Below, piece after piece: positions 5,987 through 52,881 of a stretch of 64,000 nucleotides of DNA. The DNA is from Staphylococcus sp. MI 10-1553. GTDB lineage: Bacteria > Bacillota > Bacilli > Staphylococcales > Staphylococcaceae. The stretch covers positions 2,046,001-2,110,000 of the forward strand of contig NZ_CP048279.1 of NCBI RefSeq assembly GCF_010365305.1, given 5' to 3'. Every line of letters starts with the position of its first letter. Position 1 is the stretch's first letter. Made by a program: the position numbers and the translations under genes. Under the pieces are notes generated by a model that was not told where the DNA came from, did no database searches, and was given only the letters and a program-made list of their open reading frames with translations.

Positions 5987-8017
5987 ATGTATATCAGACG
6001 TCGGGAGCGTGACATATTAGAAATACTCCTAAAGAATCAAGGGTTGCCTATTTCTAGATATGATATCGCTCAACAATTAGGGGTATCTTCGCGAACAGTG
6101 CATCGAGAACTCAACAATCTCGATGCTACCCTCACACCTTTTGAAATCACCATTCAACGTCCTAAAAATCAAGGACTCCTCTTGGTCGGTGCACATGATG
6201 ATATTGCCCGATTACAACAAGAACTCGGTCAAGATACTGTCGTTGATTTAAGTACCGAAGAACAAAAAGTCATTATTTTATATGCTCTAATTCAGTCTAA
6301 TGAACCCGTGAAACAAATCGGTTTAGCTTCAGAAATTGGCGCATCACTGCAACAACTGAGCAAAGTATTGGATGAACTCGAACAAGATTTGAATCAGTTC
6401 AAAATTGAGCTCATTCGAAAACAGGGTGTCGGAATTTCAATTCGTGGTAGCGAAATGCATAAACGCGAACTGTTAAGCCAACTGATGATGGAACGTTTAG
6501 ATAGTACGAGTGTGTATTCTGTCATTGAAAACCATTTTGTCTTTCAATCGTTAAATCATAACCGCCTGCCCATGGTCGATACAAAAGAAATTTTCCAAGT
6601 TGAACGATTGCTCATGGATGATTTGGATCATTTGCCGTATGCGTTGACAGAATCAAGTTATTTGGCACTTATTGTTCACATCGTATTAAGTATTGAACGT
6701 ATGCGTCATGAACAATACGTCTCTATCAACGAAGACACAATGGCAGAAGTTCAAGCGACTGATGAATATCACATTGCTTGTAAAATTTCAGACCGACTCG
6801 GACAGCATTATGGTATTACGTTCAATCAAGCAGAAGTCGCCTTTATTACGATTCATTTACGTGGGTCAAAGCGAAAAAATGATAAAGAGGATCAGCAATT
6901 ATCGCAAAATATACCACAGGTCGCTGCGTTAATCGAAATGGTCGCAACGGAGACTGGGCTGAAGTTTAACAACATCAACGAACTTAAAGAAGGCTTGTTG
7001 TTACACTTAACGCCTACTTTAAATCGGATACACGCCAAAATTGAAACTTACAATCCGATGACGACACGCATTCAAAGCGCTTATCCGTTATTGTTTCAAG
7101 CCGTGCGACATGCTGCAACTGAGTTATGGCCTCAACTCCATTTTCCAGACCATGAAATTGCCTTTTTAGTCTTACATTTTGGCGGCGCTGTACAAAAACG
7201 CCAACACACATCATCCGTTCTTGTCGTATGTAGTAGCGGTGTCGGGACAAGTCGTATTTTGGCCAATCGCTTAGAAGAAACGTTTCCAATGATTGACCGT
7301 ACGACGCAAATGTCTGTAAGTGATTTAAAATCGCATGACCTCACACAGTATGATGCAATTATTTCTACAGTAGAGTTGGATTTAGATCAGCCGTATTTAA
7401 CGGTGAATCCCCTACTTCCTGAATATGAAATTGCGAAGACTTCTGCATTTTTGCACCAACAACTACCGCAAAGGTCAGAAGTGCATCCACGTTTAAACGA
7501 CACGGACACATCACCTCCTGTAAAGACTATGACTGATGCGACAAAAGTGAACCAAAAAATTGATGCGATGCGCGAAAGTTTACAACTGTTAGATGCATTT
7601 GAAGTATTACAAACTGATCTGACGGATTGGTCATATGATATCGCGCAACATCTTTATCACAAGGAGATTACGCACGATTTAATTGCTATACAACAACTTT
7701 TGAAAGAACGTCACGATAAGCAATCTTTTGTATTATCACCATTTCGAGTCGCAATTCCACATTTTATTAGTGCACACGTCGAATCACCTTACATCAGCGT
7801 ATGGCACTTAGCGACACCTTACGACTTTGGTGAAGCGCTCACTGTCGATACGTTATTCTGTGTCTTTTTACCGGAAGATACACAACTTCAACGTCTCGTC
7901 AGTGAAATCTATGGTCAGTTGTCAGTCGCTTTAGACGAGCATGATGACGCACTGGCTGATGCACAGCACATTGAACAATGGGTTAAGCACAGTATTATCA
8001 CAATGAATCAACTATAA
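5987..8017 (+). CDS. mtlR: BglG/MtlR-family PRD-containing transcriptional activator of the mannitol operon
   Basis: A 676-aa regulator. The N-terminus is a winged HTH ([21 protein letters not shown], about residues 20-45). Two PRD domains follow in the middle; PRD2 carries conserved His such as HLRGS and HFGGAVQKR. An EIIB-like domain has Cys in [14 protein letters not shown] (about residue 412). A C-terminal EIIA-like domain has [10 protein letters not shown]. In Bacillus and Geobacillus MtlR these sites are phosphorylated by HPr and the mannitol PTS to gate activation. It lies between mtlA and mtlF, the usual Firmicute order, 32 bases after mtlA. Confidence 0.95.
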
Positions 8018-8033
8018 CAAGGAGCGATTGATT

Positions 8034-8468
8034 ATGGAAAACTTACTAAGAGACGAAAATATTTTATTAAACCAATCTTTTTCAACACAAGAGGAAGCGA
8101 TTGAAAAAGCAGGACAACTACTTGTAGACAGTGGTGTCGTTAAAGCGGGTTATGTACAAGCAATGAAATACCGCGAACAAATCGTATCAACATTTATGGG
8201 TAACGCTTTAGCAATTCCACACGGTACAGATGAAGCGAAAAATGAAGTTATCGTATCAGGTTTATCATTATTACAAATTCCTGAAGGCTTAGACTGGAAT
8301 GGTGAAGAAGTGAAAATTGTCATTGGTATTGCTGGTAAAGATGGCGAACATTTAGACTTGTTATCACAAATTGCGATGACATTCAGTGAAGAAGAAAATG
8401 TAGACAAAATCGTCAATGCTGCTTCTCCACAAGCGATTCGTCAAGTGTTCGAGGAGGCGGATGCATAA
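8034..8468 (+). CDS. mtlF: mannitol-specific PTS EIIA component
   Basis: A 144-aa EIIA that passes phosphate from HPr to the EIIB domain of MtlA. The active-site His lies in [13 protein letters not shown]. The sequence start [16 protein letters not shown] is typical of MtlF. An upstream in-frame TTG at 8028 exists, but AAGGAG at 8019-8024 sets the ATG at 8034. It follows mtlR by 16 bases, and its stop codon shares a base with the mtlD start (TAATG), indicating translational coupling. Confidence 0.96.
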
Positions 8469-9574
8469 TGAAAGCACTTCATTTTGGAGCGGGTAATATC
8501 GGCCGTGGTTTTATCGGTTTTATTCTCGCAGACAACCAGTTTGATGTGACATTTGCGGATGTCAATACAGATATCGTCCATGTCCTTAAAGCTGAACAAG
8601 CTTATGAGGTGACACTCGCTGATGAGGCACAAACGAAGACGACGATTCAAAACGTCAATGCAATTCATTCTGCTAAAGAACCAGAAGCACTTAAAAATGC
8701 GATTTTAGAGGCAGATTTGATCACAACAGCAGTCGGTGTCAACATTTTACCATTAATCGCAAAATCATTAGCACCTATTTTAAAAACGCGTATAACACCA
8801 GTGAACATCGTCGCTTGTGAAAATGCGATTAACGCGACAGATGTATTGAAAGCAGCTATTTTAGATGAAGTGGATACATTAGACGACAACATTCATTTCT
8901 CTAACGCTGCAGTAGACCGTATCGTCCCTATTCAACACAATGACAATATTTTAGATGTTACAGTAGAACCTTTTTACGAATGGGTGATTGAACAATCGAC
9001 TTGGCACGGTCAACAATTAGACGGTGTGAAATATGTGGATGCGTTAACACCTTATATCGAACGTAAATTGCTGACAGTGAATACAGGTCATGCTTATCTT
9101 GCATATGCAGGTCAGTATTTCGGTCATCAAACGATTTTAGAAGCAGTTAAAGATGACAAGATTGTAAAAGAATTAGAACGTACATTAACGGAAACAAGTC
9201 GCTATATTACCAACACATTTGACTTTTCTGCAGCAGAACAAGCAGCATATCGTCAAAAAATCATCGACAGATATCACAATAAATATTTATCAGATGACAT
9301 TCAACGTGTCGGGCGTGGTGTCTTAAGAAAATTAGGACCACAAGACCGTATTATGAAGCCATTGAAAGCATTATACGAAACAAACGAACCGCATGATGCG
9401 TTAACACAACTTGCAGCTTATGCACTCGTATACAAAGATGAAAATGATCCAGAAGCCGTTCAAAAAGACGAACGTATTCAAGCAGTTGGTGTTGAAACGT
9501 TCTTACAAGAACATGCGCAATTAGATGACAGATTAGCACATACCATTGCGAACAAATATCAAAAATTGTCATAG
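8468..9574 (+). CDS. mtlD: mannitol-1-phosphate 5-dehydrogenase
   Basis: A 368-aa NAD-dependent enzyme converting mannitol-1-phosphate to fructose-6-phosphate. The N-terminal nucleotide-binding motif is [19 protein letters not shown]. The catalytic region has [21 protein letters not shown], with the Lys/Asn/His set of the polyol dehydrogenase family. Length is usual for the family. It is the last gene of mtlARFD and overlaps mtlF by one base (TAATG). Hairpins at 9577-9614 and 9658-9712 follow it. Confidence 0.97.
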
Positions 9575-9576
9575 CA

Positions 9577-9614
9577 TTTGAAAAAAGCTAGGAATCGCGC
9601 ATCCCAGCTTTTTC
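9577..9614 (+). terminator. candidate terminator of the mtl operon
   Basis: Plus-strand AAGCTAGGAAT and ATCCCAGCTT pair with a short loop, followed by TTTTTCC. It lies directly after mtlD. Confidence 0.6.
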
Positions 9615-9657
9615 CTTCGCTTTGTTATCCATAGTATGATTTCAATTTCAAAGTCAG

Positions 9658-9712
9658 AAAAACCCCCTCTCAACAAGGTATAATTGCACTTGTTAGAGGG
9701 GGTTCATTATTT
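9658..9712. terminator. bidirectional terminator between mtlD and glmM
   Basis: AACCCCCTCT.AACAAG and CTTGTT.AGAGGGGGTT form a long stem, with A-rich and T-rich flanks on both sides. It serves the converging mtlD (plus) and glmM (minus) transcripts. Confidence 0.8.
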
Positions 9713-11068
9713 TTAAGCGTCTAAGCCCATTTTTTCTTCTACAACTTTTGCAATACGCTCTGCAAAGCCATGTGCATCTTCGTCTGTTTTAGCTTCTACC
9801 ATTACACGAACGAGTGGTTCTGTACCTGATGGGCGCACTAAAATACGACCTTCACCATTCATTTCCGCTTCAACTTCATCCATCACGGCTTTGACGTCTT
9901 GATTGTCTTCTACACCATATTTATCCGTTACACGAACATTTACAAGCGATTGGGGATATTTCTTCATTTGACCCGCAAGTTCACTTAACTTTTTACCTGA
10001 ACGCTTCACAACTGCTGCCAAATGTACACCAGTTAATAAACCGTCACCTGTTGTATTGTAATCCATCATAACAATATGACCCGATTGTTCGCCGCCTAAA
10101 TTGTAGTGACCACGACGCATTTCTTCCACAACGTAGCGATCACCGACTTTAGTTTTATCAGATTGAATACCTTCCGCTTCTAATGCTTTGTAGAAACCTA
10201 AGTTACTCATCACTGTTGACACAATCATATTATCGTTTAATTCTTGATTTTTCGCCATCTCTTGTCCGATAACAAACATAATTTGGTCACCATCGACAAT
10301 TTGACCTTTTTCATCAACTGCGATTAATCGGTCACCATCACCATCAAATGCTAAGCCAAAGTCACATTCATTGTCGACAACTTTTTGTGCTAACGCTTGT
10401 GGATGTGTGGATCCTGTTTCATCATTAATATTATAACCATCTGGATTACAGCCAATTGTCACTGTATCTGCTTCAAGGTCACCGAATAAAAATGGTGCTA
10501 ACGCTGCTGTCGAACCGTGTGCACCGTCCAACGCAATTTTTAAGCCTTCTAGATTCACTTCGATAGTTGATTTTAAATAACTTAAATATTTTTGTGCACC
10601 TTCAAAATAGTCAGATGTATGCACAATATCTTTACCTGTTGGACGTGGTAAATCAGGATTTTCTTGATCAAGTAATGCCTCGATTTCATTTTCTTGCGCA
10701 TCTGACAATTTGAAGCCATCTGAACCGAAAAATTTAATCCCATTATCCGCAACAGGGTTATGTGAAGCTGAAATCATCACACCTAACTCTGCACCCATTT
10801 CTCTTGTTAAATAAGCAACACCTGGCGTAGATATCACACCTAAACGCATGACTTCAGCGCCTATAGAAACTAATCCCGCGATTAACGCATATTCTAACAT
10901 TTCACCTGAAACGCGTGTGTCTTTACCTACAAGGACACGTGGATGTTTTTTATCTTCGTTATGCGCTAAAACGTATCCCCCATAACGACCTAACTTGAAT
11001 GCGAGCTCAGGTGTGAGTTCTTGGTTTGCAACGCCTCTTACACCATCTGTCCCAAAATATTTACCCAT
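9713..11068 (-). CDS. glmM: phosphoglucosamine mutase
   Basis: This 451-aa enzyme interconverts glucosamine-6-phosphate and glucosamine-1-phosphate, the step after GlmS on the way to UDP-GlcNAc. The phosphoserine loop is ISASHNP with Ser102, the metal-binding loop is DGDGD, the sugar-binding loop is GGEQSGH, and the phosphate-binding segment is [14 protein letters not shown]. It starts [12 protein letters not shown] with a good AAAGGAG site. It is the last gene of dacA-cdaR-glmM. In staphylococci GlmM also binds and inhibits DacA, which matches the gene linkage. Confidence 0.98.
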
Positions 11069-11095
11069 AAATCATATCTCCTTTTATTTCATTCA

Positions 11096-12028
11096 TCATT
11101 CTACATTTATTTTTGCTTTTAATTTTTCTGGTGATGTTTTCGTCACATTTTTCGGTAAGTCTAATTTTACTTCCCGTTCTGTATCAGATGAAACACCTTT
11201 CACATCAATTTCACCACTAATTTCAGAAATCTTCTCTAAATCTTGACGGTTTCCGAATATTTCTATTGTATCTGACTCCAAATCGATACTTGAAATATTG
11301 ATACCATTTGAAGGTGTTCCTTTTGTCGATACGTCTAATTTAACTTTTTTGGAATAAGGTTCTACTTCTGCAGTTAAATCTACTGTCGGATGATCGACTT
11401 GCACATCCAGTTTATTCATATTCTTATCAAAAACTGAAATATTCGCTTCTCCCGTGGTCTTTTCTGAAATATTGTTTTCATTACGGAAACTTGCTTTTAC
11501 AAATGCGATGCGATCTAATTGCGCCTTACCCCCTGTGACTTTTACCGTATCTGGTGACACCGACGCATCTGTAATCTTGAAATTCGGATCAATCACATAT
11601 GGGCTCACATTCGGCTCAACATGATACGTTCTTGTTTCCTTTTTCTCAACTGAAACGGTTACTTCTTTCGGATAAACACGATAGTTAATATCTTTGTCTA
11701 AACCACGTACTTGAAAGTCTAACGAATACTCACCTGGTTGAATGTTTGTAGCGTCTAACACAACTTTAAAATCTTCTGTTTTTTGTGCGCGTAATACTTT
11801 AGATTGCGGTCCATTCAACTCTACATCGACCGTATCAGGCGCCCCAGAGATATAAAGACTTTTATCGTTGTTAATCACTTCAACCGGTGCATTTTTAATC
11901 GTTTTATTCCCATCATTGGAAACACTGTCTGTATTGAACGAATCACCGAGTACATGATTGACTGATAAAAATAAGAGCAATGCTAAAATAAAAGCAGTAA
12001 AACGTAAGCCCCATTTTGATTCTAACAT
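11096..12028 (-). CDS. cdaR: CdaR/YbbR-like regulator of diadenylate cyclase
   Basis: A 310-aa protein with one N-terminal membrane segment (about residues 7-28, LRFTAFILALLLFLSVNHVLG) and a large extracytoplasmic part made of YbbR repeats. These repeats are seen as recurring stretches around V-x-V-E-L-N-G-P, PDTVKVTGGKAQLDRI and SDTIEIFGNRQDLEKI. The family modulates the diadenylate cyclase encoded just upstream. The start codon follows directly after the dacA stop (TAGATG), so the two are translationally coupled. Its C-terminus lies 27 bases before glmM. Confidence 0.93.
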   Translation of the reverse strand: MLESKWGLRFTAFILALLLFLSVNHVLGDSFNTDSVSNDGNKTIKNAPVEVINNDKSLYISGAPDTVDVELNGPQSKVLRAQKTEDFKVVLDATNIQPGEYSLDFQVRGLDKDINYRVYPKEVTVSVEKKETRTYHVEPNVSPYVIDPNFKITDASVSPDTVKVTGGKAQLDRIAFVKASFRNENNISEKTTGEANISVFDKNMNKLDVQVDHPTVDLTAEVEPYSKKVKLDVSTKGTPSNGINISSIDLESDTIEIFGNRQDLEKISEISGEIDVKGVSSDTEREVKLDLPKNVTKTSPEKLKAKINVE

Positions 12029-12835
12029 CTAATTCACACCTTTCTTTCCAAAGTGTGAGCCAAACCAATGCTCAGTTAATAGTTCTTCAAACACTTCAGG
12101 TGATATATCTTTTCTCAACTTCCCATCAAACGTGACAGAAACTGATCCCGTCTCCTCAGACACAACGACGGTAAAAGCATCAGAAACTTCTGAAATTCCA
12201 ACTGCTGCACGATGGCGCGTACCGAGGCTTTTCGCGATTTTCGGACTATCTGACAACGGTAAATAACTGGCCGTTGCTGCAATTTTGTCACCTTGAATAA
12301 TCATCGCCCCATCATGTAACGGCGTATTAGGAATAAAGACGTTTGTCAATAATTCTTGTGAAATGTCTGAATGCATCGGTATACCAGTCTCAATGTAGTC
12401 CTGTAAACCGGTTTCTTTTTCAAACACAATTAACGCACCTATCCGTCGCTTTGCCATATACTGTACGGCTTTAGAGACTGAATCCACTAATTTAGGCACT
12501 TCTACTGTAGACGTCGTGGCATACCGTTTGAACAAACTCCCTCTCCCAAGTTGTTCTAACGCACGTCTAATTTCAGGTTGGAAAATTACAATAATGGCTA
12601 AGAAACCCCATTGTAATACCAAATCAAAAAGTCTCGAAGTCGTCGTCAGTTGTAAGTATTCACTGATTGCTTTCCCTACAAGTATAAATAATATCCCTTT
12701 TAATAATTGAATTGCTTTCGTCCCTTTAAAGACTGTAATCAGCAAATAAATGACATACCATACAATTAATAAATCTAGAATATCTGTGATGACCTCAAGC
12801 GTACTTAAATTTTCAAAGAGGTGTGAAATTTGCAT
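12029..12835 (-). CDS. dacA: diadenylate cyclase (c-di-AMP synthase)
   Basis: A 268-aa membrane enzyme joining two ATP to c-di-AMP, the second messenger controlling osmolyte transport and wall homeostasis. Three N-terminal membrane helices (about residues 15-95) precede the DAC domain. Its catalytic motifs are NTPLHDGAMIIQ and LGTRHRAAVGISE (the DGA and RHR motifs). The neighbours cdaR and glmM form the conserved Firmicute three-gene operon. A good sigma-A promoter lies at 12871-12899 and a GGAGGAGATA ribosome site precedes the ATG. Confidence 0.97.
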   Translation of the reverse strand: MQISHLFENLSTLEVITDILDLLIVWYVIYLLITVFKGTKAIQLLKGILFILVGKAISEYLQLTTTSRLFDLVLQWGFLAIIVIFQPEIRRALEQLGRGSLFKRYATTSTVEVPKLVDSVSKAVQYMAKRRIGALIVFEKETGLQDYIETGIPMHSDISQELLTNVFIPNTPLHDGAMIIQGDKIAATASYLPLSDSPKIAKSLGTRHRAAVGISEVSDAFTVVVSEETGSVSVTFDGKLRKDISPEVFEELLTEHWFGSHFGKKGVN

Positions 12836-12870
12836 AGTATCTCCTCCGGTAATCTATTCCCATGTCCCTT

Positions 12871-12899
12871 ATTATACCAATGTTTATAAGCGTTTGTCA
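12871..12899 (-). promoter_or_regulatory. sigma-A promoter of dacA-cdaR-glmM
   Basis: Minus strand TGACAA, 17-base spacer, TATAAT; the -10 is preceded by TTGG (partly extended). It lies about 40 bases upstream of the dacA start. Confidence 0.65.
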
Positions 12900-12991
12900 T
12901 ATCAGAGTAAAAATAAATCACACTTAAATATTTCAAGACCTACATTCAATCATTTTATGTAAAATTGAATGAAACGAACTGAACGCCAAAT

Positions 12992-13036
12992 TAAAAATGA
13001 GGTAAAGATGACATATTTGCTCCTTACCTCGTTTCA
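12992..13036 (-). terminator. terminator of the arginase gene
   Basis: Minus-strand AACGAGGTAA and TTACCTCATT form a stem of about 9 bp with an 18-base loop, followed by TTTTAATTT. It lies 35-70 bases after the arginase stop. Confidence 0.65.
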
Positions 13037-13066
13037 AAATTTAAAGTTTATAATTTAAAAGATGTT

Positions 13067-13972
13067 TTATAACAATGTTTCACCAAAGAACGAGCCTAAC
13101 AGTGCAACTGCTTGTTCCGCCGTATGATTTCCTACATCTAAGAGTGGATTCACTTCAACAATATCCATTGACGTAATAATGCCGGATTGATTAAGTAACT
13201 CTAAAGCATAATGACTTTCGCGATATGTTAAGCCACCTGAAACTTTCGTACCCGTCCCCGGTGTTTCATTAGGATCTAAAGCATCGACATCTAATGATAA
13301 ATGCACACCATCAGTCTTATCTTTTAAATATGTAATACTTTCTTCAATGACTGAACGTATGCCCCGCTCATCAATATCAGCCATCGTGTAAGTACGAATT
13401 CGATGCTTTTTAATATATTTACGTTCACCAAAATCTAAATCACGCATACCGATAAGCACAATATTTTCCGGTTTGACTTTAGGTGCAAAGTCGCCAAGTT
13501 GAACTAATTTTTCATCTCCTTCACCAACCAAAATACGTAATGGCATCCCATGCATATTACCGGATGGCGATTCTTCTGGTACATTGAGATCACCATGTGC
13601 GTCATACCAAATGACACCTAAGTTATCATAATGCTCTGCAACACCAGAAATCGAACCAATAGCTAACGAATGGTCGCCACCTAGAATAACTGGGAAATGT
13701 TGTTGACGAATACTGTCTGACACTTTATCCTTTAATGATTTTGAGAAAGTGAGGATTTCCTCATAATTTTGTAAGCCCTCTTGTTGAGACATAAACTTCT
13801 CAATATCTACAGGTGGTGCTTCAACGTTTCCTGCATCAATCACCTCGTGACCGATACGTTTTAATCGTGGTAACACCCCTGCATATCGAATCGCATCTGG
13901 TCCCAAATTCACACCTAGCTTTTTCTGTCCAAATGTAGTAGGTGCACCGATGAGTTCTATAATTTTATTCAT
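13067..13972 (-). CDS. rocF: arginase
   Basis: A 301-aa ureohydrolase splitting arginine to ornithine and urea. The binuclear manganese motifs are all present: [16 protein letters not shown] and SLDVDALDP. It begins [20 protein letters not shown]; the frame is open to 14017, but the ATG at 13972 is preceded by AAAGGGGAG. It is a single-gene unit with its own promoter (14059-14087) and terminator. Ornithine from this reaction could also feed staphyloferrin A synthesis, which uses D-ornithine; that link is inference. Confidence 0.95.
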
Positions 13973-45791: not shown

Positions 45792-46420
45792 GTTTTACTT
45801 CTTTACTAAATAAACATAGTGCTAAAACAGAAAATCTATTTATAGCGAGAAGCCCCCTGTTTTACTTCTTTCTAAATAAACATAGTGCTAAAACACATTC
45901 TAATACCTAAAATCGCATAAATAGTTTTACTTCTTTCTAAATAAACATAGTGCTAAAACACGGTTGAAGATATTAAAGATGAGCTAGCCAGTTTTACTTC
46001 TTTCTAAATAAACATAGTGCTAAAACAATGCTCCAAAAGCAGAAAGCACAGATTCGGTTTTACTTCTTTCTAAATAAACATAGTGCTAAAACTCTTATCA
46101 ATACTTCGATAGCGTTCGTTCAGTTTTACTTCTTTCTAAATAAACATAGTGCTAAAACAATGCTCCAAAAGCAGAAAGCACAGATTCGGTTTTACTTCTT
46201 TCTAAATAAACATAGTGCTAAAACCAACGTAACCACGACACAGATGCCGGCTTGTTTTACTTCTTTCTAAATAAACATAGTGCTAAAACATAGCCTCTGC
46301 AACTTCTTTATGCTTTATGTTTTACTTCTTTCTAAATAAACATAGTGCTAAAACTAAGTGTACTTATAGTGTGCTATTTCTTCAGTTTTACTTCTTTCTA
46401 AATAAACATAGTGCTAAAAC
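45792..46420 (-). CRISPR. type II-A CRISPR array, 10 repeats and 9 spacers
   Basis: Repeats of 36 bases begin GTTTTAGCACTATG and end AAGAAGTAAAAC on the minus strand (the crRNA strand). Repeat starts are at 45792, 45859, 45924, 45991, 46057, 46123, 46189, 46254, 46319 and 46385. Eight of nine internal repeats plus the leader-proximal one are identical; the leader-distal one (45792-45828) has an extra base. Spacers are 29-31 bases. The spacers at 46027-46056 and 46159-46188 are identical. The leader is at the high-coordinate end, next to csn2, so the newest spacer is 46355-46384. Spacer targets cannot be named without a search. Confidence 0.98.
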
Positions 46421-46609
46421 CTCAAATCTAAAGGCACCAACTCAATACTTTTTCAAAATTGAGGCTTAGCACTATCAAAAGAAGTCAAACATTAAACTCG
46501 ATTGATAAAGTTAACCCACATCATCACGAATAAAGTCACATAGTCATTACTTAATCGTTCATCGTTGTATTAACTTTTCTCTATCATATGATATTAAGTT
46601 TAGTATAAC
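46421..46609 (-). promoter_or_regulatory. CRISPR leader
   Basis: AT-rich region between csn2 and the first repeat. Its repeat-proximal end reads ATTTGAG on the minus strand, the leader-anchoring sequence known from streptococcal type II-A arrays and needed for directional spacer insertion. Further upstream are a hairpin CTCAAT/ATTGAG (46441-46463) and an inverted, shortened repeat-like element (46464-46490). I find no convincing sigma-A promoter. TTAAGTT/AACTTAA forms a small hairpin at the csn2 stop. Confidence 0.8.
46464..46490 (-). repeat. degenerate anti-repeat in the CRISPR leader
   Basis: On the minus strand, GTTTGACTTCTTT then TG then ATAGTGCTAAG. This is the reverse complement of the array repeat with about nine central bases missing and a few substitutions. 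It is oriented opposite to the array repeats, so a leader transcript could pair with the first repeat. Confidence 0.75.
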
Positions 46610-47458
46610 TTAATTGTAATGATTTATAAACTTAAAATACCGTTTAAACTCAGAAAGGTTTTCACCTACAAATTCGTGGTATGCGATCATGTGAGTCAAT
46701 TGATAACTCACCATTTCATCTGGAATAAATAACGATAATTCTTCTTTTATTTTTTCAATGTCATGACACTCTTTATTACTTTTACAAAGAAATATGTTTT
46801 CTTCGTTAATGATGATAGAAGGATGATTGGTGAAAACAATCGTTGTGAAATGATACTTCTTTAAAAGTTGCATAAATACTTCTATATCGCGAATACCGAG
46901 GTGAGACTCCGGAAATAATACAATCAAAATGTTTTCTTTTGTTGAGTGAATGAGTAGATCAATGAATGCTTTTCTTTTATTTATTTCACTTAAATCCTCA
47001 AGCTCGTTATGAAAATCTAATCCAAACAATTTTAGCAATCTTCTCAACTTAAAAATCGATGGTTGCAATTCTATTTGATAGTCATCATCGTATATACCTA
47101 GCGTATTTTTTAAATCAATTAGACTTTGTTCAAACTTTAAAAATGAGTGATTTGCTTTTTCATAATTAATAATTTGTTCTTCAAAAATTTGATACACTTT
47201 TTCTTCTATCAATTTTTGCCCTAATAGATTTCTATCTCCACAATTCAAAATAATCGGATGAAAGTTTTTCGGGCTAATCGTCTCATAATCGTCTGATATA
47301 AAATGTGCAAATTGATTTTCTACGACAGGTTTATTCGTCATATAGTCCATAAAATCTTGTATAAAAGTTCCACACAGAGCAGTATCTTCAAAAGTTATAA
47401 TATTTACACTTTCTTCTTTAATTTCGAGAACCTCTGTGACATGACTCGCAATTTTCAT
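46610..47458 (-). CDS. csn2: type II-A CRISPR adaptation protein Csn2
   Basis: A 282-aa protein, last of cas9-cas1-cas2-csn2. Csn2 forms a ring that binds DNA ends during spacer acquisition and defines type II-A. At 282 aa it is longer than the ~220-aa S. pyogenes form and shorter than the ~350-aa long form. Visible parts include NIITFEDTALCGTFIQDFMDYM near the start, ALIDLLIHSTKENILIVLFPES-like core (FIDLLIHST, ILIVLF) and YQLTHMIAYHEFVG at the end. The start overlaps the cas2 stop by ATGA. Confidence 0.88.
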   Translation of the reverse strand: MKIASHVTEVLEIKEESVNIITFEDTALCGTFIQDFMDYMTNKPVVENQFAHFISDDYETISPKNFHPIILNCGDRNLLGQKLIEEKVYQIFEEQIINYEKANHSFLKFEQSLIDLKNTLGIYDDDYQIELQPSIFKLRRLLKLFGLDFHNELEDLSEINKRKAFIDLLIHSTKENILIVLFPESHLGIRDIEVFMQLLKKYHFTTIVFTNHPSIIINEENIFLCKSNKECHDIEKIKEELSLFIPDEMVSYQLTHMIAYHEFVGENLSEFKRYFKFINHYN

Positions 47459-47772
47459 AATTCAATCACTCTTTCAGAACTTAAGCCTATTTGGCCTTTT
47501 GGAGGGGTTCCAACTAGATACTTCATATTTGAAAACTGATTTTCTGTTACAACCAACGCCTGGACTATTCCATTTGAAGGTACCACACTTTTTAATTTTG
47601 TGATTTGATGATTTAATGTAGAACTGTTAAAAATTAACTTACAATATATAGAGAATTGGAGTCTCACATACCCTTCATTCGTTAGAAATTTAACAAATTG
47701 CCGATATGCACGTCTTTCACTCGATGTCTCTACTGGTAAGTCGAACATTAAAATTAATCTCAAATATCTCAC
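47455..47772 (-). CDS. cas2: CRISPR-associated endonuclease Cas2
   Basis: A 105-aa Cas2 with the beta1 motif RLILMFDLPVETSSERRAYRQFVKFL and EGYVRLQFSIYCKL, which partners Cas1 in the integration complex. The frame is open to an ATG at 47820, but that start has no ribosome site and adds 16 lysine-rich residues not expected in the family. The GTG at 47772 (MRYLRLILMFD) aligns with the usual Cas2 start. A TTG at 47763 preceded by GAGGTG is a further alternative. The stop overlaps csn2. Confidence 0.93.
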   Translation of the reverse strand: MRYLRLILMFDLPVETSSERRAYRQFVKFLTNEGYVRLQFSIYCKLIFNSSTLNHQITKLKSVVPSNGIVQALVVTENQFSNMKYLVGTPPKGQIGLSSERVIEL

Positions 47773-47826
47773 CTCAACATATATCCCCTTATTAATCAAT
47801 TTTTCTTTTTTAAAATCCATGTTAAA

Positions 47827-48702
47827 TTAATATGTCCAAGTTGGTATTTTTATAACTTCTATATCTCCACTTGACAAATATTTAAATAAACTGTCTACAT
47901 AGATTTCTACAGCATTTAGAAAAAAATATCTTTTATTATCAACTATTAACCTTCTATTTAAAATATTCAGTATTGCTCTTTTTTGGTCTGTTTCAAATTG
48001 TTGCTCTACATTTTTTAAAACCAAATAATCTATGAGTGGTCTGAAAATCTCCATAAAGTCAGACGCTAAATTATAAATATTGAATTCATTACGGTGTTTG
48101 ATGCCCAATTCAGTAAGATAGCCCTTACTTACAATCGTTCTTGCTACAATCGCTAATAATACTTGATAACCATAATCCATAGCAGCATTTTGAGCAGTGT
48201 CATCACCCCGTGCATGCCCATGGTCTAGTATGATGTTAAAATAAACTTTTGCCGCATGTCCTTCACGATTGGTACTATCATCTAACTCTACACTATTCAC
48301 AAACGCGTCAAATAAGTCTGTACTACTTTCTTTAAAAAATTCTTGAACAACTTGCTTTTGATTTAAAATTTTGTATTTGACTAATAGCTGCCAAAGTTCT
48401 GCTTTTCTTTCACTTTTCCAGCTGATTTGATTTTGGATGAGTCTCACTTGTCTATGATGACCGTATAGGGGGAGTAAAACTGTATTCGGCAAATGTTTCG
48501 TATTACATAAAATCGTTACAATCTTCTGATCACTTAATGCATTCATGAGATGTCCAGTCATTGAAACGTTAGGGTGTTCAATGACTAGACACAGGATTTC
48601 ATTTAAAGGAATACGACTTAAATTTTCACCTTTAACAATTAATTGATTCATTCTAAGTGACAATTTCGATTCTTTCGTTATGATTACTGTTCTAAAGCTC
48701 AT
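47827..48702 (-). CDS. cas1: CRISPR-associated endonuclease/integrase Cas1
   Basis: A 291-aa type II Cas1, catalytic subunit of spacer integration. The metal site is complete: Glu in REGHAAKVYF, His in GIKHRNEFN and Asp in LASDFMEIFRPLIDYLVL. Start MSFRTVIITKESKLSLRMNQLIVKG is typical. It overlaps the cas9 stop by 11 bases, showing translational coupling, and lies just before cas2. Confidence 0.97.
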   Translation of the reverse strand: MSFRTVIITKESKLSLRMNQLIVKGENLSRIPLNEILCLVIEHPNVSMTGHLMNALSDQKIVTILCNTKHLPNTVLLPLYGHHRQVRLIQNQISWKSERKAELWQLLVKYKILNQKQVVQEFFKESSTDLFDAFVNSVELDDSTNREGHAAKVYFNIILDHGHARGDDTAQNAAMDYGYQVLLAIVARTIVSKGYLTELGIKHRNEFNIYNLASDFMEIFRPLIDYLVLKNVEQQFETDQKRAILNILNRRLIVDNKRYFFLNAVEIYVDSLFKYLSSGDIEVIKIPTWTY

Positions 48703-51700
48703 TTCTAGACTCCGCTAATTTAAACAATGACTTAGGTTTCGTTGTTTTCAAACCTGAAATTGATGTATATGCGATTTTAACATCTCTCCCTTTTCCTAAA
48801 AATGCACGATTACTCATACTGTTTTTTCGACTTCCTATCTTTTCTGATCTTACTGCTGATGCTTTAACGACTTTAAATAATTCGTCTAATGCTTTTACAA
48901 AATCTTCATGACTTTGATTTGATTGAGAGAAAAGTGTTTTAACTCTTTCCTCTTTTAACGCACTGTTTAAATAATGGCGATATTCGTTCGTCACTTTTTC
49001 AGCTATATCATCATATACATTTACTAACTCTTCAACACTTGTTTCTTTATTGTTCAACGCATTGTATAAAGAAAGTTGTTTCTCAACAGTTAACTCGAAT
49101 TGTTTTGCATTAATTACTTCATTGCTCGAAACAAAATAGCATGGATGATTATTAATGTATAACAAGTCACCTTTATTAAGTGAATAAACGATATGGGCAT
49201 CTAATACCTCCTCTTTATTCTCACGTCGCGCTAAGTATAATGCTAGCTCTTTCTCATTACCATTTTTAAATTTATAAAAATCAAACACATAATGATCAAT
49301 CATTTGATATTGCATTTTCACTTTTCCTTTTTTAGTCGCTGTTTTGATTGCGACGACAAATGTTTGATAAGTAGTGAGACTCGAATAAACTGCATCTGTA
49401 CTTTTATCAGATTCATACTTTAGTTCTGCTGTTTTTGGCGATAGTGCTGTTTGTTTATAAAATTGTTGTGGTATATTTGCTAACTTTTTAGAGTAATTGA
49501 TTTTAAAATGATTCATATCTAACTTGATTTTTGAAATAAGCCGTTCACCTTGGCTCACTTCCATTTTTTCGAGTTTTTTGAAAAAGAATAGTTCTCTCGT
49601 CTTTTGCTTCGTGTTGAACTCACCTAAAGCTTTCCATTTCTCTCTTACTTTCTCCCATTTAAAATTGAAATCAAATAAATCTACATTAGGATAAGCAAGT
49701 TGCGCTCCGTGATATACGACACCATTCAAATAGGCATCAATCGCGTGATGTGCATCGTTCATTTGACGTATTTTAGGAATATCAAATTTCTTTCTAAATT
49801 CAGTCACCATTTTCGCCTTCATTGGAATCACTTTTGCATCCGGATATTCTTCTTTAAGGAAATCTCTCACATGTACCGAAATCTGCCGCGTTTCGACGAG
49901 CTGACGTTGGATAAATCCCTCCTTGTCCATTGCATTAAATTCCGGTTTCATTAATTTATGCAATTTACTGTCACTAATTAATCCCGCTTTATTTAAACTT
50001 TTCCAGTAAGCGATTCTTTCATAGGGGTGATGAATAAATTGTAACGGGACTTGATCCCCTTTCGTTTGGTTCATAGCTTTAATAACTAACACTTTATTAT
50101 CGATTGAATCATCTTTAATAAAGCTTCGTGGAATAATATGGTCCACTTCGTAATATTTTGTCGCATTTGAAGATAATAGTGTATCTAAATCTATACTTTT
50201 CCCTGAATACATACACTTACCATTTTGAGATAAGTACAACCATAACTTTTCTTGTTGTAACTGTTCATTATTCAATTTATTAGCGACGTCAATGATGTAT
50301 TTGTATTCATCCACTGATTTTAATTTGTTTTTCTTAACATTGTCATCCCATAATTGTTTTCGACTTTTCTGTTTTTTACCTTTCTGTTGATCTTCAGTCG
50401 CAAATTCCATAATAATCTTTTCTGGTTCACCAAATATTGAAGTCAATTCTCTCACCAGTTTTATCGTTGACCAGATGCCCTTTTTCAATGCTGGAGAGGT
50501 TGCTAAATTTGCGATATCTTGGTATTGAATTGTGTTTGATTGCACTTGATTCTCTTCTTTTATAAAATTCTGAAAGCCATAATCATCATTTGTTAATATT
50601 TCCATAAAGTTTTCATCAGAATGTCTCAACAATTCAATTATAGAGTGGCCCTGATGCGAGTGCGTTAATAGTTTTTCACTCAATCTTCCCCAACCCGAGT
50701 AATTCAACTTTTTCAATTGATTGATTTGTTGTGACGTTAACTCTGGATAGTTCTCTTTCAATTTTTGGACTAATATCTTTTTATCTTCAAAAATAGTAAT
50801 CCATTGAATGATTTCTTCAATTTGTGCTCTTTTATCATCAATATTTCCAAAAATTTTAGTCATGTCTTGATAGGAAGATAATTTCGATACAAACTTTTTA
50901 TCATCTTGCGTTCCAAAAATAGACAGCCTTTCGCCGTGATTCATAAAATTTTCGCGATGATTCGAATTCAACATGATTTCTAAAAATTTGCTATGACTCA
51001 CTGTTTTATACTTCTTAAAGATGTGTTCTACTGCAAATAATTTAATTTGAGGTATCAATCTGTATTTACGATTTTTTGGATCTGTTTGAAATCTTACCTG
51101 AATCGCATTCAATTCATTCAATAATTCCATTTCTTGATACAACAAACTATTTTTCGGCAACACATCTTCATTCATCAAATATGTACATTTATTCGTCATC
51201 CGTCTAATGAATTGAGTGGCACTTTTCGAACGATCCACAACTTCATCAAAGTTCCATGGTTTAATGGGTTCATTGGATTTTCTTTCCATCCAACCAAATT
51301 TTGCTGTTGCTTGGTCGTTAACAAGTGGCCCGACATAATAAGGGATTCTAAATTGAATGAGGCTTAAAACTTTTTCAATTATTTCATCAGTGATTTCAGC
51401 ATGATACTTTTGTTGGTTTCTCAAAATAGTTTCAGCTTCATACAAACTGATTTGCATCGGGATACTTGCATTATCTGTTGTATTTAAAACTTTTAACAAC
51501 GTGTCATTTTCCGCTTCAAAATATAATTCACTATCTTGAGGGATGATTTTTTTGAGTTCCTTGATAAATGATGAATATTGCTTTTTAGGTCGAATTACAT
51601 ATTGATCGAATAAACAGAGCGCACTGAAATTTTCGTCATTCGGAATCGCTTCATATTGTTTTAAACTTTCCTTACTCGAAACGAAAATCTTTTTAAATTG

Positions 51701-52696
51701 TACTTTCGTTGGATCCGCCTTATATACAATGTCTTTCACTTGTTTTAATTCATTTTTAAATTTATCGTAAGCTGCTACTTTTGATATGGCCATTGACTTA
51801 TTCCCATTTAATATATCTTGAAGCGTAAACGACAAATAAATTTTGTTAGCACGCTCAATCAATTCCAATTGCTCTACCGTTAAAAATGACGTTAAGTTCT
51901 CCTCATAATTATCAGCAAAAGAATGCGATTGTTTCGCTTCTTTTAACTCCTCTGCATTGTCAGCATGATTAAATAGGTCACCTTCATTAAATTTAAGACC
52001 TAACAGCATTTTTGAAAATTGTTTAAGTTCTTTCTCAATTTTAACAACAGCTTTTTCCCGATCGTTTTTAGTCATTTCGTTATCTTGCAAAATATCAAAG
52101 ATTTCCTTTTTCTTCTCATAATCAAGGTTCAATGAAATGTTATTGAGCTTTTCATATACCTCAATCAGTTCTACAAAATCCTCCATATTGTCATTGTTAG
52201 ATAAGTTTTCGATATTTAAATAATTGAAAAGAAAGTGGCCTCTATATTTCACTAAATGGTATAACGCTATATAGATAAGTTCAGGCTCGAATTTTTCATC
52301 TTTTAATAAGAGTGCTTCTTGTAAATGATAAATCGTTGGATACTTTTTAGGAGCATAGCGTAAGAAGCTTAAAACCTCAGAAAGACTTTTGTTTTTAAAA
52401 TCCATGTTATCATTTTTCCAAGTGAACTGTCTTTGAAATTGATAAAAGTTTGGATTTTGAACTAAAGGCGCCAAAATCTCTTGTAAAAGACCTAATCGTT
52501 TAATACGACGATTATTTCTTCTTCTTGCCGTTCGAAACTGTCTACGTTCTTGAGCTGTTAGTGCACCGTCAAATAAGTATACACCTATCGCATCTTTGTC
52601 ATAGTACTTTAAAATGTTAAATTCTTTATCCATACACGCATAACCGACACTTCCCGTACCAATATCGAGACTTAAAATATAAGGTTTTTGAGCCAT
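48692..52696 (-). CDS. cas9: type II-A CRISPR RNA-guided endonuclease Cas9
   Basis: A 1334-aa Cas9, close in length to S. pyogenes Cas9 (1368) and much longer than S. aureus Cas9 (1053). RuvC-I is YILSLDIGTGSVGYACMD with Asp11. An arginine-rich bridge helix follows (QERRQFRTARRRNNRRIKRLGLL). RuvC-II is IIMEFATED with Glu764. HNH is YYEVDHIIPRSF with His853. RuvC-III is NDAHHAIDAYLNG with His984 and Asp987. All nuclease residues are intact. GGAGGG seven bases before sets the ATG at 52696. The C-terminal PAM-interacting region is present but its PAM cannot be read from sequence alone. The gene looks more AT-rich than its neighbours. Confidence 0.98.
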   Translation of the reverse strand: MAQKPYILSLDIGTGSVGYACMDKEFNILKYYDKDAIGVYLFDGALTAQERRQFRTARRRNNRRIKRLGLLQEILAPLVQNPNFYQFQRQFTWKNDNMDFKNKSLSEVLSFLRYAPKKYPTIYHLQEALLLKDEKFEPELIYIALYHLVKYRGHFLFNYLNIENLSNNDNMEDFVELIEVYEKLNNISLNLDYEKKKEIFDILQDNEMTKNDREKAVVKIEKELKQFSKMLLGLKFNEGDLFNHADNAEELKEAKQSHSFADNYEENLTSFLTVEQLELIERANKIYLSFTLQDILNGNKSMAISKVAAYDKFKNELKQVKDIVYKADPTKVQFKKIFVSSKESLKQYEAIPNDENFSALCLFDQYVIRPKKQYSSFIKELKKIIPQDSELYFEAENDTLLKVLNTTDNASIPMQISLYEAETILRNQQKYHAEITDEIIEKVLSLIQFRIPYYVGPLVNDQATAKFGWMERKSNEPIKPWNFDEVVDRSKSATQFIRRMTNKCTYLMNEDVLPKNSLLYQEMELLNELNAIQVRFQTDPKNRKYRLIPQIKLFAVEHIFKKYKTVSHSKFLEIMLNSNHRENFMNHGERLSIFGTQDDKKFVSKLSSYQDMTKIFGNIDDKRAQIEEIIQWITIFEDKKILVQKLKENYPELTSQQINQLKKLNYSGWGRLSEKLLTHSHQGHSIIELLRHSDENFMEILTNDDYGFQNFIKEENQVQSNTIQYQDIANLATSPALKKGIWSTIKLVRELTSIFGEPEKIIMEFATEDQQKGKKQKSRKQLWDDNVKKNKLKSVDEYKYIIDVANKLNNEQLQQEKLWLYLSQNGKCMYSGKSIDLDTLLSSNATKYYEVDHIIPRSFIKDDSIDNKVLVIKAMNQTKGDQVPLQFIHHPYERIAYWKSLNKAGLISDSKLHKLMKPEFNAMDKEGFIQRQLVETRQISVHVRDFLKEEYPDAKVIPMKAKMVTEFRKKFDIPKIRQMNDAHHAIDAYLNGVVYHGAQLAYPNVDLFDFNFKWEKVREKWKALGEFNTKQKTRELFFFKKLEKMEVSQGERLISKIKLDMNHFKINYSKKLANIPQQFYKQTALSPKTAELKYESDKSTDAVYSSLTTYQTFVVAIKTATKKGKVKMQYQMIDHYVFDFYKFKNGNEKELALYLARRENKEEVLDAHIVYSLNKGDLLYINNHPCYFVSSNEVINAKQFELTVEKQLSLYNALNNKETSVEELVNVYDDIAEKVTNEYRHYLNSALKEERVKTLFSQSNQSHEDFVKALDELFKVVKASAVRSEKIGSRKNSMSNRAFLGKGRDVKIAYTSISGLKTTKPKSLFKLAESRNEL

Positions 52697-52728
52697 TTTG
52701 TTTCCCTCCACTTAATTTATATATGAAT

Positions 52729-52757
52729 ATTATCGCAAATAGTTTGATAATTGTGAA
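52729..52757 (-). promoter_or_regulatory. candidate cas9 operon promoter
   Basis: Minus-strand TTCACA (52752-52757), 17-base spacer, GATAAT (52729-52734), about 30 bases before the cas9 start. Interleaved with the tracrRNA promoter on the other strand. Confidence 0.55.
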
Positions 52758-52772
52758 CACTTATGATACTAT
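52744..52772 (+). promoter_or_regulatory. tracrRNA promoter
   Basis: Plus-strand TTGATA (52744-52749), 17-base spacer, TACTAT (52767-52772). Predicted start near 52779, just before the anti-repeat. Confidence 0.65.
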
Positions 52773-52778
52773 CGATTT

Positions 52779-52881
52779 GAAGGTTTTACTTCATTCTAAA
52801 TAAACATAGTTAAGTTAAAACAAGCTTAAAGCGTCAATGTAATATTTCATTAACACCCTACTGTGTCAGTGGGGGTTTTTT
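52779..52881 (+). ncRNA. tracrRNA
   Basis: The plus strand reads an anti-repeat (52782-52820: TTTTACTTCATTCTAAATAA, then ACATAGTTAAGTTAAAAC) complementary to the array repeat except for one mismatch and an asymmetric bulge (UUAAG against CA) like that in S. pyogenes. Then follow a short nexus stem (GCT/AGC), a hairpin AATG/CATT and a terminator CCCTACTG/CAGTGGGG with six Ts. It is divergent from cas9. Confidence 0.92.

Follow-up and report, generated by a model that had tools for sequence, protein, structure and literature searches.

In the type II-A CRISPR-Cas locus of Streptococcus pyogenes, the tracrRNA gene lies upstream of cas9 and is divergent from it. Cas9 of this system (SpCas9) is the common laboratory Cas9; the roles of its catalytic residues D10, E762, H840, N863, H983 and D986 are established, its PAM is NGG, and the GG is read by the arginine dyad R1333/R1335 of the PI domain. 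Leader RNA of II-A arrays reportedly contacts the repeats around the newest spacer, which is known as spacer prioritisation. The window analysed here, a stretch of 64,000 nucleotides from Staphylococcus sp. MI 10-1553, very probably (about 0.93, judged from sequence) carries an intact type II-A immune system, a type already known. The organism is a relative of the dog bacterium S. pseudintermedius.

The genes cas9, cas1, cas2 and csn2, the leader and the array were found in a single locus, all on the minus strand. The cas9 open reading frame (48692..52696) starts with ATG and encodes 1334 amino acids; it was identified by TIGR01865 (741.9 bits), PADLOC Cas9 (727.7 bits), its catalytic residues and its place in a tree. 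An alternative GTG at 52711 would give 1339 amino acids, and overlaps GGAGGG, the apparent ribosome site of the ATG. The genes cas1 (47827..48702; 291 amino acids; TIGR03639, 277.2 bits; PADLOC Cas1_II, 341.9 bits) and cas2 (47455..47820; 121 amino acids; TIGR01573, 61.8 bits; PADLOC Cas2_II, 186.1 bits) were, like cas9, identified by NCBIfam, Pfam and PADLOC. Csn2 (46610..47458; 282 amino acids) had no NCBIfam or Pfam Csn2 match and was identified by PADLOC only, at full length (482.5 bits, residues 1-281). A preliminary description of this DNA had given all four genes overlapping starts; this holds for the pairs cas9/cas1 and cas2/csn2, whereas cas1 and cas2 are 6 nt apart. All four genes are open, with neither a frameshift nor a stop codon. 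Alignment with SpCas9 placed D10, E762, H840, N863, H983 and D986 at D11, E764, H853, N876, H984 and D987 of the window protein; the HNH and RuvC residues are thus kept, as had been claimed for the 1334-residue Cas9.

The array (45792..46420) comprises ten repeats and nine spacers of 29-31 nt, eight of them distinct. Nine repeats are perfect 36-nt copies, a result equalled in 0 of 100 shuffles, and the leader-distal repeat is a 37-nt variant with one extra base. Spacers 4 and 6 (46123-46354) have the same sequence, and the spacer that separates them differs; either a duplication with loss or the repeated uptake of one protospacer would account for this. The tracrRNA (52783..52881, end approximate) lies on the plus strand and consists of an anti-repeat (52783-52821), hairpins, a terminator-like hairpin (52856-52874) and a T run. 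Its duplex with the repeat was predicted at -39.5 kcal/mol, the pairing expected of type II-A. Nine tracrRNAs of long-Cas9 relatives could be aligned, and both the terminator stem and the middle hairpin showed paired changes by eye. At 52729..52772, promoter-like sites for cas9 (minus strand) and the tracrRNA (plus strand) overlap and diverge; they are consensus matches only, the scan having returned 25 sites against 35.7 in shuffles and hence no excess. Gene set, array and tracrRNA together agree with the preliminary description of a complete type II-A system with a ten-repeat array and a terminator-bearing tracrRNA; its guide scaffold is, as anticipated, its own, with repeat and tracrRNA sequences unlike those of S. 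pyogenes.

Protospacers were searched for in phages, plasmids, genomes and viral contigs by using the spacers of the window and of its three closest relatives, G022 (genomes are given by our handles where they must be told apart), S. cornubiensis and S. intermedius, 52 in total and 51 distinct. The 22 match regions fetched first were scanned together with further loci; many of the remaining matches were the same spacer in more phages. At up to four mismatches a best match was obtained for 14 distinct spacers, six of them perfect, and all 14 chosen matches are followed on the 3′ side by NGG, whereas GG occurs in their flanks at a frequency of 0.019. The figure relied on is that for up to three mismatches, NGG in 12 of 12 spacers; the two weaker spacers are ambiguous. 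These are window spacers 2 and 8, each with an NGG match at four mismatches and a rival match with another flank (spacer 2: S. capitis phage, five mismatches, CAA; spacer 8: four mismatches, GTG). No accepted match was found for 37 of the 51 spacers in the collections searched. Among the eight distinct spacers of the window itself, only spacers 3 and 4/6 were matched at up to three mismatches, none perfectly; the six perfect matches all came from spacers of G022 and S. cornubiensis. When viral contigs were scanned with 20-21 nt from the PAM side of each of these eight spacers, two matches resulted, one for spacer 3 (accepted) and one for spacer 7 (eight mismatches, CTC flank). Spacer 5 had no phage match. 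Spacer 7 matched 244 phage records; among the matches listed, the staphylococcal one examined had 11 mismatches and a CTC flank, and the phage matches of spacer 7 were on this ground taken as chance. The eight- and the 11-mismatch matches, both without NGG, were dropped.

Staphylococcal phages and related elements thus contain matches, adjacent to NGG, to spacers from the window and from its close relatives, and the annotated protospacer genes include those for tape-measure, terminase, holin, endolysin, primase and collar proteins. No protospacer was accepted from the array searches of distant relatives; a spacer of G371, one of these relatives, had a match with two mismatches, followed by AAT, and NGG is therefore assigned to the close group of the window and not to the whole clade. 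Within that group, the bases flanking the spacer matches were compared as had been proposed, and the expectation that this Cas9 would probably have a PAM of its own is contradicted: the 12 spacers show the same 3′ NGG as SpCas9, and a private PAM was rejected.

By analogy with known II-A systems, Cas1, Cas2 and Csn2 would act with Cas9 to acquire spacers from next to NGG, inserting them at the leader end of the array, the pre-crRNA would pair with the tracrRNA and be cut by host RNase III, and Cas9 with the dual RNA would cut matching DNA next to NGG. The locus might instead look intact and yet be silent, its genes and array kept and immunity gone. The missing perfect matches for the window's own spacers in the collections searched are compatible with this, as are decayed loci of the close relative type: cas9 carries stop codons in G041 and G063, and in G030 cas1 is broken and the site has no array. 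Since the window retains four open genes, all catalytic residues and nine perfect repeats, a silent locus is considered unlikely, and an intact system is preferred.

The leader (46421..46500, minus strand) adjoins repeat 1 with its ATTTGAG end and is complementary to the repeat at 46463-46490, as judged from the sequence, duplex shuffles and a fold. Of 22 leaders in view, all cut by hand, five were left out (G288, G402, G231, G394 and G175). In each of the other 17 II-A leaders, many of them related and hence not 17 independent cases, the leader:repeat duplex energy was reached by only 0-10 of 500 dinucleotide shuffles; for the window the number was 2 of 500, a complementarity beyond chance. 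In minimum-energy folds of leader-repeat-spacer-repeat, all six staphylococcal cases showed pairing of the leader with the 5′ half of repeat 1. The remaining part of the leader paired with the 3′ half of that repeat in four cases, and in the window and G041 it paired with repeat 2. Leader RNA may pair with the repeats around the newest spacer and favour its processing. A second, decayed tracrRNA was rejected as a very improbable account of this stretch, which does read as an anti-repeat followed by a hairpin-like tail; the tail differs among relatives, however, and repeat complementarity was present in 17 of 17 leaders tested.

Cas9 was searched for in 84 Staphylococcus genomes, 34 of which gave a match at E values up to 0.001. 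Ten, the organism's own included, carry a long Cas9 (52-100% identity), which has a stop codon in two of the ten; at family level a long Cas9 was present in 14 of 108 genomes. The named relatives, S. intermedius NCTC 11048 and S. cornubiensis NW1, have Cas9 proteins 88-89% identical to that of the window, which is accordingly placed in the S. intermedius group. Both a long and a short Cas9 were seen in each of G041 and G066. In G030, cas1 is only partly present at the cas9 site and an array is absent there; two copies of matching arrays, separated by 41.9 kb, lie at a distance of more than 1 Mb (C1:127034-129296 and 168928-171190). A solitary CRISPR repeat, identical at 35 of 36 bases to that of the long-Cas9 relative G063, occurs in Staphylococcus phage 37 (AY954958.1, 26686-26721) between annotated genes and with a 15-base direct repeat on either side. 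RNA anti-CRISPRs are a known kind of RNA decoy; the phage repeat could be such a decoy or a chance relic.

A Cas9 tree was built from 30 rows; G041, G063 and G457, which have long Cas9s with a stop codon or incomplete, were left out. The window Cas9 fell into a clade of 11 rows, all from Staphylococcaceae (eight from Staphylococcus, three from two other genera), with support of 100/100. SpCas9, the Listeria Cas9, seven rows of family f27, which is probably Streptococcus, and one row of family f6 formed another group, also at 100/100; membership of the SpCas9 clade was rejected on this separation. The protein, with 1334 residues, likewise stands apart from the short branch of the S. aureus type (about 1053 residues), so the orthologue search and tree proposed in the preliminary description upheld its placing of a long Cas9 outside that branch (100/100). 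Downstream of the array, an alcohol-dehydrogenase-like gene is common to the window, G022, S. cornubiensis, S. intermedius, G011 and G041, and a transporter gene follows it in five of these six genomes. Within 1-2 kb of upstream DNA, G022 alone showed the esterase-like gene that lies upstream of the locus, split into two pieces. These results favour inheritance with the chromosome over recent acquisition; the window Cas9 belongs to a long-Cas9 lineage of Staphylococcaceae, which in this section of the genus has probably been passed on together with the chromosome. An old transfer is possible. A recent move of a streptococcal II-A system with a private PAM into this staphylococcus, as was proposed with the phrase 'S. 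pyogenes-like branch', is scarcely credible: SpCas9, at 450 bits, is a closer match to the window Cas9 than 5axw_A, of the short staphylococcal type, at 95.6 bits, but the Staphylococcaceae-only clade, the downstream gene common to six genomes and NGG in 12 of 12 matches all count against it.

The PI domain was compared with that of SpCas9, to which it is identical at 40 of 247 aligned residues (16%). R1333 and R1335 of SpCas9 align with S1293 and S1295 of the window protein; the RxR dyad is thus missing in an alignment that may be off at this identity. Across 13 clade members two other arginines, R1283 and R1290, do not vary; that they read GG is a guess. A model of the PI fragment was poor (pLDDT 54.7), and in a 1200-residue model pLDDT was below 50 around R1290; the solved structures closest to the latter model were SpCas9 and other long Cas9 chains, at large rmsd.

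The divergent orientation of the tracrRNA relative to cas9 makes direct repeats of its anti-repeat and the array repeat. All eight intact loci tested showed this: the two share 14-22 exact bases (17 in the window) and are separated by 6.2-6.4 kb of cas genes. Scars surfaced as array matches among the 108 family genomes. In G014 and G021, which have no Cas9 match, a hybrid is present that is tracrRNA on one side and, on the other, consists of an array repeat, a single spacer and a terminal repeat that has decayed. The flanks are collinear with the intact G050 locus (95.4% for G021, 90-92% for G014), relative to which about 7.1 kb are missing, with a 23-base overlap at the join. From this join, recombination between anti-repeat and array repeat appears to have deleted the cas operon in both genomes. 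The window has the same direct-repeat arrangement and so is a substrate for this deletion; such recombination could be a general route of II-A loss. G018 has about 6.2 kb of other DNA (7029-13214 of its locus) where G050 has the cas operon, and was not counted as a scar.

Two further readings are given slightly less than even odds: that the long Cas9s of Staphylococcaceae read NGG without the SpCas9 arginine dyad, perhaps through R1283 and R1290 and as a second solution to the same PAM, and that anti-repeat/array recombination removes the cas genes in one step, possibly as a general route by which II-A systems are lost. The analysis corrects two guesses on long staphylococcal Cas9s, recent streptococcal origin and a private PAM, and provides a testable NGG prediction for a 1334-residue Cas9 whose PI domain is divergent and whose guide scaffold is its own. 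At sequence level, the scars provide a simple explanation of how a II-A cas operon can be lost while a repeat and a spacer are left behind.

Compared with known systems, the window shares with the S. pyogenes II-A locus its gene set, long Cas9, catalytic residues, divergent tracrRNA upstream of cas9 and NGG; it differs from SpCas9 in the PI domain (40 of 247 residues identical, no RxR dyad), in repeat and tracrRNA, and in its separate clade. With SaCas9 it has in common that both are type II Cas9 proteins of staphylococci, whereas SaCas9 has about 1053 residues, a separate branch and another repeat. As is reported for the leader RNA of II-A arrays (Liao et al. 2022), the window leader is complementary to the repeat, and in the fold it pairs with repeats 1 and 2. 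S. intermedius NCTC 11048 and S. cornubiensis NW1 have long-Cas9 II-A loci with the repeat, gene order and downstream genes of the window and with Cas9 88-89% identical; their spacers and leader sequences are different.
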